A program made the translations under genes and the position numbers. The notes below the pieces were generated by a model. It had not been told where the DNA came from, did not search any database, and worked only from the letters and a program-made list of their open reading frames with translations. Shown in pieces: positions 19,298 to 37,079 of a stretch of DNA of 39,359 bases; the stretch's first letter is position 1; the number at the start of each line of letters is the position of its first letter. The stretch lies in assembly GCA_020052615.1 (NCBI GenBank), contig JAGVOT010000135.1, positions 1 through 39,359 on the forward strand. The letters are read 5' to 3'. The stretch comes from Nitrospirota bacterium (GTDB lineage: Bacteria; Nitrospirota; UBA9217).

Positions 19298-19458
19298 CCG
19301 CGGATAATAAACAGAAAGACGGAAAATTTTCGACACAGAAGAGGCGGATCGGTAAAACGATAAGGGCGGCTAAGAGGAAAGAAAAAAGACTATGCCCTGT
19401 CCGCAGTTATCATAAGTACTTTATCAGTGTAAATCAGTGTCAAAGATTTTTCTCCGAG
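19296..19458 (+). repeat. 163-bp dispersed repeat, copy A
   Basis: Starts within the NagA stop codon (AACCGCG). Shared blocks with copy B (36917-37079, opposite strand): TCGACACAGAAGAGGCGGAT, CGGTAA(A/G)ACGATAA, GTTATCATA, ACTTTATC and AAATCAGTGTCAAAG, then TTTTTCT(C/T)CG. Both copies are 163 bp overall, with internal indels. Confidence 0.85.
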
Positions 19459-19484
19459 TCCCTGTGGCAAATTAACGTTTTCCC

Positions 19485-20177: not shown

Positions 20178-20281
20178 AGCTTGTTAAAAAGGTAATTTCG
20201 CAGGCTAAAGCCTGCGGCTGCCAGATCGTAATGCATTGATCATGCAATCAGGGAGCCGCACCCTTTAGGGTGCGTTTTAGT
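20178..20281 (+). repeat. Paired-hairpin REP/MITE-like element, copy 1
   Basis: Two palindromes, CGCAGGCTAAAGCCTGCG (20199-20216) and CGCACCCTTTAGGGTGCG (20257-20274), joined by a 40-base linker beginning GCTGCCAGATCGTAATGCAT. An inverted copy lies at 35737-35840, with compensatory changes in the first stem. Confidence 0.88.
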
Positions 20282-20320
20282 GTTGAGAGGCAATTTTTAG
20301 CGGCCTGTCAAAAGGTCCTC

Positions 20321-24464: not shown

Positions 24465-26363
24465 ATGCCTCTTATCAGTCTTCAAAATATCAGCGTCGGA
24501 TTCGGAGGGCCGCTCCTGCTCGAAGGCATCGACCTCCAGATAGAGCCGGGAGAACGGGTCTGCCTCGTCGGCAGGAACGGCACCGGAAAATCCACGATCA
24601 TGCGCGTCATCACGGGCGAAATAAAGCCCGACCGCGGCATGGTCGTCGCCCAGCAGGGGCTCCGGCCGACGATCCTGACCCAGGAAGTTCCGCAGAACGT
24701 CAAGGGCAGCGTGTTCGACGTCGTGTCGGAGGCCTTCGGCGAACAGGGAAAACTGCTTGCCGCCTATCACCACGTAAGCGCGAAACTCGCCCACGACCAC
24801 AGCGAGAAGCTGATGGCGGAGCTCGAGGACGTCCAGCACAAGTTCGAGGCGGCAGGGGGATGGCAGATGCAGCAGCGCGTCGAGACCATCCTGACGCGGC
24901 TGCAGCTTCCCGAGGACGCGGAATTCTCCGAGCTCTCGGGCGGGCTCAAGCGCAGGGTCCTTCTGGCAAAGGCCCTGGCAGGCGAACCGGACCTGCTGCT
25001 CCTTGACGAGCCCACGAACCATCTGGACATCGAGGCGATCGCCTGGCTCGAGGAGTTCCTGCTCACCTTCGGCGGCACGCTGCTCTTCGTGACCCACGAC
25101 CGGGCGCTGCTCCAGAAGCTGGCGACGCGGATCGTCGATCTCGACCGGGGAAGGCTTACGAGCTGGCCGGGCAGCTACCACGCCTATCTCGAACTGAAGC
25201 AGGCCGCCCTGGATGCCGAGGCCACGGAGAACGCCAAGTTCGACAAGAAGCTTGCGGCCGAGGAGGTCTGGATCCGCCAGGGCGTCAAGGCGCGCAGGAC
25301 GAGGAACGAAGGCCGCGTGCGGGCGCTCAAGGAACTGCGCAGGACCAGGAGCGAACGGCGCGAGAAGATCGGTACGGCGAACATCCAGGTGCAGGAGGCC
25401 GAACGGACCGGCAAGCTCGTGGTCGAGGCGCAGGACGTGAGCTTCGGGTACGGGGGCAGGCCGATCATCAGCGGCCTCTCCACGACGATCATCCGCGGCG
25501 ACAAGATCGGCATCATCGGGCCGAACGGCTCGGGCAAGACCACGCTGCTGAAAATACTGCTCGGCGACCTGAAGCCCCAGCAGGGGAAGGTGAAGACGGG
25601 GACGAACCTCGAGGTCGCCTATCTCGACCAGCACCGGGCCCAGCTGGACGATCAGAAGACCGTTCAGGACAATGTCGCCTACGGCAGCGATCATGTGACC
25701 ATCAACGGAAACCGGCGCCATGTGATCGGCTATCTGCAGGATTTCCTGTTCGCCCCTGCCCGCGCGCGCAGTCCGGTCAAGGTCCTGTCCGGAGGAGAGC
25801 GGAACCGCCTGCTGCTGGCGAAACTGTTCACCCAGCCCTCGAACGTACTGGTTCTCGACGAACCCACGAACGACCTGGACATCGAGACCCTGGACCTCCT
25901 CGAGGAACTGCTGATGGACTATGCCGGCACGGTGCTGCTCGTGAGCCACGACCGGGCCTTCATCAACAACGTCGTGACGAGCACGCTCGTGTTCGAAGGC
26001 GAGGGCAGGGTCAGCGAGTATGTGGGGGGCTATGACGACTGGCTGAGGCAGAGCAGGGCGAAGATCGGCGCACCGGCTGTCCCGGTCAGGGCCGAAGAGC
26101 GGAAGGTCGCGACGCCGGTCCCGCAGCGGGACAAACCCCGGAAACTGAGCTTCAAGGAACAGAAGGAACTGGACGAGCTTCCGAAGCGCATCGAAGAGCT
26201 CGACGCGGAACAGCAGAGGATCATCGCCACCATGGCGGACCCTGCTTTCTATAAAGAGAGCGGAAACAAGGTCGCTTCGACAAAAGCGCGGCTGGAAAAT
26301 CTGGAGAAAGAGCTGGCGGAAGCGTACAAGCGGTGGAATGAACTTGAGGCGCTGAAGGGATAA
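24465..26363 (+). CDS. uup: ABC-F ATPase Uup
   Basis: 632 residues from ATG 24465 (MPLISLQNISVGFGG); an in-frame ATG at 24291 lies upstream of the promoter and is rejected. Two ABC domains: Walker A GRNGTGKST and GPNGSGKTT, signatures LSGGLKRRVLLAKAL and LSGGERNRLLLAKLF, Walker B LLLLDEPTNHLD and VLVLDEPTNDLD, joined by the ABC-F linker rich in R/E, and followed by a C-terminal coiled coil (about 565-632) typical of Uup rather than EttA. No membrane segment: it acts on ribosomes or branched DNA intermediates. A cassette-type attC site starts six bases after its stop. Confidence 0.92.
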   Translation: MPLISLQNISVGFGGPLLLEGIDLQIEPGERVCLVGRNGTGKSTIMRVITGEIKPDRGMVVAQQGLRPTILTQEVPQNVKGSVFDVVSEAFGEQGKLLAAYHHVSAKLAHDHSEKLMAELEDVQHKFEAAGGWQMQQRVETILTRLQLPEDAEFSELSGGLKRRVLLAKALAGEPDLLLLDEPTNHLDIEAIAWLEEFLLTFGGTLLFVTHDRALLQKLATRIVDLDRGRLTSWPGSYHAYLELKQAALDAEATENAKFDKKLAAEEVWIRQGVKARRTRNEGRVRALKELRRTRSERREKIGTANIQVQEAERTGKLVVEAQDVSFGYGGRPIISGLSTTIIRGDKIGIIGPNGSGKTTLLKILLGDLKPQQGKVKTGTNLEVAYLDQHRAQLDDQKTVQDNVAYGSDHVTINGNRRHVIGYLQDFLFAPARARSPVKVLSGGERNRLLLAKLFTQPSNVLVLDEPTNDLDIETLDLLEELLMDYAGTVLLVSHDRAFINNVVTSTLVFEGEGRVSEYVGGYDDWLRQSRAKIGAPAVPVRAEERKVATPVPQRDKPRKLSFKEQKELDELPKRIEELDAEQQRIIATMADPAFYKESGNKVASTKARLENLEKELAEAYKRWNELEALKG

Positions 26364-26368
26364 GGGAG

Positions 26369-26428
26369 AACTAACGCGCGGCTGACCCACCGGGCGAAGC
26401 CCGGACGGAGTCGAGCCGCTTGTTAAGC
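26369..26428 (-). mobile_element. Integron attC recombination site (60 bp)
   Basis: Read on the minus strand: R'' GCTTAAC (26428-26422, fits RYYYAAC), AA, L'' GCGGCT-C-GAC, a 23-base centre that folds on itself (CCGGGC/GCCCGG), L' GTC-AGCCGC, GC, and R' GTTAGTT (26375-26369, one mismatch to GTTRRRY). L'' carries one extra unpaired base (C at 26413), the hallmark extrahelical base of attC. The brnA stop TAA lies inside R'', the usual geometry of a gene cassette with gene and attC in the same orientation. Only one clear attC is found and no integrase is in the window. Confidence 0.82.
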
Positions 26429-26707
26429 CCTCTTTTTTTCTATTAAGTAGCCGGAGACAAATTTGTGAATGACGCTAGAGATCAATGTTTGATAGGGCAC
26501 GCCTTCCTGGGCAGCAATGACCTGGACCTGATCTAAATCTTTTGAAGACATCCGAATATTAATTCTTTTGTCTTTCAAAAGCGTATTTCTAGCATAAGCT
26601 TTCAGCTTATTGATTTCCACCTTCGGATTCCTAACGGTTCTCCATTCGCCACGATCAAAGGATTCCGAAATTTTCTTTTCTTCTTCATTCAAAGTTATTT
26701 TTTTCAT
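26423..26707 (-). CDS. brnA: BrnA-like CopG-family antitoxin
   Basis: 94 residues. An acidic N-terminal segment (NEEEKKISESFDRGEW) that would bind the toxin, then KDKRINIRMSSKDLDQVQVI...VPYQTLISSVIHKFVSG, a ribbon-helix-helix DNA-binding domain. This is the BrnA/CopG antitoxin layout. It overlaps the toxin gene by 4 bases (ATGA), with the toxin first, the standard brnTA order. It neutralises BrnT and represses the operon. Its stop codon lies inside the attC R'' box. Base composition is clearly more AT-rich than the neighbouring uup. Confidence 0.85.
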   Translation of the reverse strand: MKKITLNEEEKKISESFDRGEWRTVRNPKVEINKLKAYARNTLLKDKRINIRMSSKDLDQVQVIAAQEGVPYQTLISSVIHKFVSGYLIEKKRA

Positions 26708-26982
26708 TTCTTTCCCCTCACATATTTATCCGTAGCTTTTCTGCTCGGAATGAGCGTCTTCAGAAAAATCTCATCCCCGTCGTGAACATAAGGAACGAGA
26801 TAAGCGTAATCATCGATCATGACGACTGCCATCCTTTGGCCAGGATACTCATCCTGATTGGGATGCTCGACCACATCGAGAACTTCTCCCCGTTCCATCA
26901 AAAGAACAACCTGCTCGAAACAGACGCCTCGATGCTCTTTCAGCCATTCATTCTTATCGTTGTTCCATCTGAAAAACCTCAT
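26704..26982 (-). CDS. brnT: BrnT-like toxin (ribonuclease)
   Basis: 92 residues beginning MRFFRWNNDKNEWLKEHRGV, containing FEQVV, VVEHPNQDEYPGQRMAVVMIDD and IFLKTLIPSRKATDKY. The length, order and strand pattern fit the BrnT toxin family, RelE-fold ribonucleases that inhibit translation under stress. It is more divergent than typical BrnT, so the exact catalytic residues cannot be pinned. No ribosome site precedes the ATG at 26982; the promoter -10 ends six bases before it, so a leaderless transcript is expected. With brnA it forms the cargo of an integron-type cassette. Confidence 0.78.
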   Translation of the reverse strand: MRFFRWNNDKNEWLKEHRGVCFEQVVLLMERGEVLDVVEHPNQDEYPGQRMAVVMIDDYAYLVPYVHDGDEIFLKTLIPSRKATDKYVRGKK

Positions 26983-27017
26983 ATGGACAATATATGACGT
27001 TGTCTGCCTTTTGTCAA
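26979..27017 (-). promoter_or_regulatory. Leaderless brnTA promoter with overlapping operator
   Basis: Minus strand: TTGACA (27017-27012), 17-base spacer, TATATT (26994-26989), then six bases to the brnT ATG. An inverted repeat TCATAT-N7-ATATGA (26979-26997) covers the -10 and the start codon and is the probable BrnA operator. Confidence 0.8.
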
Positions 27018-27403
27018 CCGGTTTCGTGGTACAACGGATATATAGGGGTGGGCCGATACGTGCAAGAGGTTAATGAGTGGAATAGTTTCGTATAGTCCGA
27101 TTTTTCAATGCCTACAACGATGCTACGGCTATGATTTTGTGATTTTAGAAGCCAAGGAGTCAAACAAGGCGCTCACTGCTTTTGGCAACTCCCAAATGAT
27201 TGTAGACAGTTTGCCTGACAAACCCAAAACAGAACAAACAAGGAGGACAATCTCCATACTTCCCAAAAACGATTGCTCGATCCGAACAGATGATGCCTTA
27301 GCTCTCTGTTGATTGTGAGAACGAATATATGCCTGATTCAAAGCGATGTCAACAATGGCGGAAGGGTATTATAAGGTTAGGCGTCGAAGAATGCGGTTTG
27401 AAC
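27018..27403. other. AT-rich stretch without a convincing gene
   Basis: The segment is poorer in GC than its surroundings. A 70-codon minus-strand frame (27129-27341, TTG start) encodes one hydrophobic segment and could be a cassette ORF, but it lacks a ribosome site. TTAGG/CCTAA inverted words at 27377-27381 and 27410-27414 include one GTTAGGC, which fits an attC R box, but no complete attC can be built. Confidence 0.5.
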
Positions 27404-35706: not shown

Positions 35707-35736
35707 ATTCCCGTTCCCCGGCTTTCCGGCTTAACG

Positions 35737-35840
35737 TCAAAACGCACCCTAAAGGGTGCGGCTACCAACTACAAATTTAATGCGTTACGATTTGGCAGCC
35801 GCGGGCTTTAGCCCGCGTAATTAATCTTTCAACAGCCTGC
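35737..35840 (-). repeat. Paired-hairpin REP/MITE-like element, copy 2
   Basis: Inverted copy of 20178-20281. Palindromes CGCACCCTAAAGGGTGCG (35743-35760) and CGCGGGCTTTAGCCCGCG (35800-35817). The second differs from copy 1 by an A-T to G-C pair change on both arms. It reaches the dusB stop codon. Confidence 0.88.
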
Positions 35841-36859: not shown

Positions 36860-36916
36860 AGGGATTTTGGCCGAAGAACAAACAGAAAACAGGTCCTCCA
36901 CATAGATACAGGTACA

Positions 36917-37079
36917 CGAAGAAAAACCTTTGACACTGATTTCCACAGATAAAGTGCCTATGATAACTACGGATAGAACCAAGTCTGTTTTCTTCCCTCG
37001 GTCTTGATACTTATCCGTCTTTATCGTCTTACCGATCCGCCTCTTCTGTGTCGAAGATATTTCCTGGTTGTTCGCGGTT
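36917..37079 (-). repeat. 163-bp dispersed repeat, copy B
   Basis: Opposite-strand relative of 19296-19458. From the minus strand it starts AACCGCG, then TTCGACACAGAAGAGGCGGA, and ends AAATCAGTGTCAAAG and TTTTTCTTCG. It fills much of the spacer between dusB and the deacetylase gene; the remaining spacer shows no gene. Confidence 0.85.

Follow-up and report, generated by a model that had tools for sequence, protein, structure and literature searches.

A probable one-cassette, integrase-less integron site carrying a BrnT/BrnA-type toxin-antitoxin operon behind uup in a Nitrospirota genome

The site directly behind the uup-like gene described here is very probably a one-cassette integron site without an integrase of its own, in which a BrnT/BrnA-type operon with its own promoter is closed by an attC and cassettes would be exchanged by an integron integrase (IntI) acting in trans. 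The genome (G000) is a draft Nitrospirota MAG, and the window is the whole of one 39-kb contig (39,359 nucleotides). In the usual picture, an integron consists of one integrase and one array, and integrase-less attC clusters are seen as debris. The present genome, in which about eight of some 21 small attC loci begin with a putative attI and two of those eight correspond to empty sites in relatives of other genera, is a natural system for asking whether a single integrase acts in trans on many chromosomal platforms. The features of the uup locus are collected in Table 1.

Table 1. Features of the uup locus, in coordinates of the window.
Feature	Position	Strand	Remarks
uup-like ABC-F gene, fixed flank	24465..26363	+	attC starts 5 bases past its stop
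attC (60 bp)	26369..26428	-	match to the R1 covariance model; site outside the training set
attC R' box GTTAGTT	26375-26369	-	one mismatch to GTTRRRY
attC L' box GTC-AGCCGC	26386-26378	-	
attC L'' box GCGGCT-C-GAC	26419-26414, extrahelical C 26413, 26412-26410	-	
attC R'' box GCTTAAC	26428-26422	-	perfect against RYYYAAC
brnA-like CopG-type antitoxin gene, 94 aa	26423..26707	-	PF12441 E 1.4e-5; NF047399 E 5e-4
brnT-like toxin gene, 92 aa	26704..26982	-	PF04365 E 3.7e-5
Cassette sigma-70-type promoter TTGACA-17-TATATT	26989..27017	-	start of the brnTA unit conserved in 7 other genomes
Likely cassette 5' edge	27017..27035	-	predicted at G|TTGACA (27018/27017) or G|TTGTAC (27035/27034)
Dispersed promoter-like element	27319..27390	-	TTGACA-17-TATATT at 27352-27324, pointing towards the cassette

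A preliminary description of this DNA had proposed an attC on the minus strand, and all of the boxes that it claimed are present. L'' and L' form nine paired bases with a C bulge in L'', and the predicted exchange point lies between 26375 and 26374. The TAA stop codon of brnA (26425-26423) falls inside R'', with gene and attC pointing in the same direction, as had also been proposed. A covariance model (R1) was built from nine attCs taken from the C66 array, the C74 and C101 integrons and the sister genome G001, with the window site excluded; the model was chosen because home-made scans based on R boxes and folding gave chance matches, the first version being far too permissive and a stricter one still returning scattered hits. 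In the training attCs, 22 cells were changed on both sides against a shuffled mean of 7.5, and 0 of 500 shuffles scored as high. When the earlier suggestion of a covariance-model check was followed with this home-built model, the window site was matched with its R and L boxes paired at 50.4 bits, with E 7.7e-12 in a search of the whole genome and E 1.5e-13 in a 76-kb search. The bottom strand was expected to fold on itself and does so as single-stranded DNA (z = -3.5 against dinucleotide shuffles), but the plus strand folds equally well (z = -3.8), so that folding energy alone assigns no strand. The minus direction is instead indicated by the R1 match and by the position of the extrahelical C, which lies in the 5' arm. 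Judged by its sequence, 26369-26428 (-) is a true attC of the type found in the integrons of this genome, and its recombination by IntI is predicted. Rfam gave no match within the window.

Alternatively, the hairpin might merely resemble an attC and serve to terminate transcription of uup, or transcription from both sides. The extended stem (AAGGG/CCCTC) does run into TTTTTTT when read on the plus strand, but this T-run is the coding end of brnA and is kept in homologues that lack the hairpin. The site is not listed by a terminator scan, the strength of the R1 match argues for an attC, and a terminator would leave the swapping of cassettes at the same point in G001 unexplained. This explanation is regarded as highly improbable, while a side role of the attC hairpin in termination is possible.

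The attC is not an isolated chromosomal site, as had been supposed, given that R1 finds 34 attC matches in the genome at E<=1e-3 and at least two IntI genes lie on other contigs. With a joining distance of 4 kb, the 34 sites form 21 loci, of which 12 are single, some of these lying near contig ends; several of the sites are weak by R1. All 30 attCs that were inspected follow the stop codon of a same-strand ORF within about 95 bases. The E-values are credible because R1 finds 0 or 1 matches per genome outside the family (G014-G021), as compared to 1 to 36 in family members. In one family member, G008, 25 attC matches were observed, with no IntI found at E<=1e-30 or 1e-25.

The cassette begins with the toxin gene, followed by the antitoxin gene with an overlap of 4 bp. 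BrnT scores 24.4 bits against PF04365, below the gathering cut-off of 34.5, and BrnA scores 26.2 bits against PF12441, just below the cut-off of 28, and 20.2 bits against NF047399, below the cut-off of 60. All eight members of the BrnT alignment match PF04365 at E<=1e-3 (best 1.9e-7). These weak but consistent family assignments suggest a divergent BrnT/BrnA-type type II toxin-antitoxin pair. Profile searches of the PDB with BrnT and with BrnA gave no significant match, and PADLOC gave none. The preliminary description was right that the pair is AT-rich against its surroundings (41.7% GC, compared to 61.5% in uup and 59.7% in the whole window) and that it brings its own promoter, and similarity to the copies elsewhere starts at the -35 box of this promoter (27017). 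The stretch from 27036 to 27318 has no similarity to any locus compared.

Across the phylum, the toxin-antitoxin operon is found repeatedly as a unit with sharp edges. While brnT is carried by 69 of 296 phylum genomes, it was not found in any other family member searched, which suggests that the window brnTA arrived recently. Seven copies, 69-71% identical in protein sequence, have edges like those of the window copy, with similarity beginning at the -35 TTGACA or a few bases before it and ending, in the six complete copies, at GGGCTTAA, while the flanks are unrelated. These sharp edges alone are no proof of cassette movement, because functional constraint on promoter and genes could produce them too. 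By eye, the 3' ends of two copies (L200 and L202) are attC-like; R1 gave no match to either of these ends, and the fold of L200 is not significant. An attC-like sequence also seems, by eye, to flank the brnTA unit of L202, whose genome (G117) has an IntI above the cut-off.

The attC lies directly behind uup, as had been described, with a gap of five bases rather than six (stop codon 26361-26363). In the sister species G001 (CAKKRC010000016, Nitrospiria bacterium Hainich-H41-bin277-1), the C-terminal part of uup is 94% identical, and behind the gene come, in order, an attC of 26 bits, a SnoaL-like gene, another attC of 69 bits and a gene of 127 aa. The 26-bit uup-adjacent attC, which is weaker than that of the window, was outside the R1 training set and the 69-bit attC was inside it. 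The junctions on the uup side differ by a few bases, reading GTTAGTTCTCCC in G000 and GTCCTCCC in G001. Thus, the position is not private to the brnTA cassette, as had been implied, for in G001 the same point is taken by an attC with two other cassettes. The preliminary description had named the same sequence behind uup in relatives without brnTA as counter-evidence; this was not encountered, since the attC of G001 differs in sequence and closes another cassette. In other genera, no attC-like sequence was seen after uup by reading, and R1 gave no significant match in one such locus (L065). In a third genus, an attI-like element (R2, described below) is observed downstream of uup in the opposite direction (L026; G006 C121:4009-4095 +).

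The simplest reading of these two loci is a single shared platform with turnover of cassettes in both species, and it is suggested because 5' of the cassettes both loci carry the same dispersed promoter-like element, after which they diverge. In an nhmmer search with 27319-27390, the element matched itself at 1.2e-19 and the G001 uup locus (L051 3796-3725) at 6.2e-19. There are five copies in G000 (in the window and on C73, C103, C61 and C90), and others lie in G001 (C16 and C13) and G002 (C132). The element, TTGACATC...CAGGCATATATTCGT, precedes cassettes and also other genes, and is possibly a regulon promoter. It was considered as an attI and rejected, as it also precedes genes without an attC (C103 and C90). 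Two other repeats are found in the window as inverted copies, namely REP-like repeats GCACCCTTTAGGGTGCG at 20251-20287 and 35730-35766, and a longer element of 52-92 bp at 19323-19465 and 36908-37061.

An alternative possibility is that IntI inserted a single cassette into a genomic attG site of the non-classical type (G|TT just past the uup stop), independently in each species. Insertion of cassettes into genomes via attG is a published mechanism, cited in PMC11023631 and PMC12901181, and in an alignment by eye GTTC is already present at the same position in a relative without the cassette (L023). Both sister species, however, use the same spot and share the dispersed promoter element 5' of it, and independent attG insertion is considered possible but rather doubtful.

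The attC of the uup locus is probably served in trans by an IntI from elsewhere. Two IntI genes in the genome, on C74 and C101, pass the TIGR02249 cut-off; a third copy, on C53, is broken by a stop, and weaker partial matches occur elsewhere. All of these matches lie on other contigs and none on that of the window, as the preliminary description had noted for the window. The C74 protein is an integron integrase by NCBIfam; two cassettes with their attCs occupy the interval from intI to mfd in this integron, which also has a putative attI. The relatives G001-G005 also have an IntI above the cut-off. The sequence GAACGTTCGTTC is found upstream of intI in G001 C15, C101 and C53, and is consistent with a LexA box of the GAAC-N4-GTTC type. 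In the IntI proteins of the family, the TIGR02249 match is preceded by a long N-terminal extension, as seen in G001 C15 (L242 2925-4376) and C74 (L014 251-1579); in the latter the match begins at residue 132 of 442. Both C101 and C53 (L015 and L016) have a small conserved ORF, of about 110 aa (MAATIKLKPGQKGTK... in C101), that separates intI from the first cassettes.

An IntI encoded by a complete integron at another place in this genome would recombine the folded attC strand in trans, allowing cassettes to be exchanged at the chromosomal spot behind uup, and the toxin-antitoxin pair would make losing its cassette costly. The site could, on the other hand, be all that is left of a sedentary integron that has decayed, losing its integrase and ceasing to exchange cassettes. 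The broken IntI on C53, the lack of an attI in the window and the several weak attCs of the genome are consistent with such decay, but the window attC retains every box and pair, IntI genes above the cut-off persist in the genome, and the absence of brnTA from the rest of the family points to a recent arrival. A relic of this kind is considered unlikely.

Further evidence on how such sites may be organized comes from an element of about 85 bp that was found 5' of the cassettes at two single-attC loci, C110 and C36, and of which most copies end CACTGG|TTRRRY. A model of this element (R2) finds eight copies in the genome (three in its training set and five outside it), none of them adjoining intI. 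All eight have a same-strand attC match 0.3 to 0.95 kb downstream, although for the copy on C69 the nearest attC is sub-threshold (E 0.12) and the next with E<1e-3 lies at 0.9 kb. Across 17 genomes, about 26 of 43 R2 matches were paired by hand with a same-strand attC, several of the others lying at contig ends or outside the examined set. The hairpin of the element is partly covarying; copies include L152 2178-2263(-), L158 2088-2172(-), G001 C15:24083-24167(-) and about 40 others. Two relatives have a copy at intI: that in G001 C15 separates the gene from the first cassette, and that in G002 C81 adjoins the gene. Because of this, the element is most simply taken as a putative attI, which it probably is. 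Rfam gave no match for it. R2 has no match in the window, where no attI is recognisable, while a weak match (19.2 bits, E 0.2) lies where expected in the G001 uup locus.

Empty sites were found for both of the loci at which the element was noticed. The C36 unit is missing in G003, G004, G008 and G010, where its flanks meet within about 60 to 180 bases, and for C110 the clearest empty sites are in G004 and G008 (about 120 and 150 bases). At both places G001 has different content. It is plausible, though judged slightly less likely than not, that the family has dispersed, integrase-less mini-integrons, each composed of a promoter, an attI of about 85 bp, one or two cassettes and an attC, that share a few SOS-controlled IntI in trans, with the uup locus of both species belonging to these platforms and having lost its attI to decay in the window. 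With respect to open PMC text, the eight integrase-less loci that combine an attI-like element, a cassette and an attC may be novel.

The window locus itself belongs to known classes, those of single attCs without integrase and of BrnTA cassettes. It lacks the intI and any recognisable attI that a complete integron would have beside the cassette, and it has the single attC without an integrase. It thus resembles the CALIN or single-attC class of IntegronFinder (PMC9024848) in having an attC-closed cassette with no neighbouring intI, and that source indicates that single-attC cases can be true positives. It differs from a CALIN in that the site is common to two species with different cassettes and is preceded, on the 5' side, by a dispersed promoter element. 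The earlier statement that toxin-antitoxin cassettes are known in integrons is borne out by published BrnT/BrnA cassettes in integrons and CALINs (PMC7370490), including three in a CALIN of Halorhodospira halochloris (PMC7923331). The cargo of the window is of the same kind, but the pair is divergent, falling below the Pfam and NCBIfam cut-offs, and forms a single cassette. Insertion into attG, for which citing papers refer to Loot et al. (2024, Nat Microbiol), likewise places a cassette in a non-integron chromosomal position, and a shared platform with cassette turnover fits the window at least equally well. Sedentary chromosomal integrons such as those of Vibrio have IntI, attI, attC and toxin-antitoxin cassettes in common with this genome, but instead of a single large array the cassettes here are arranged in ones and twos over about 21 loci.
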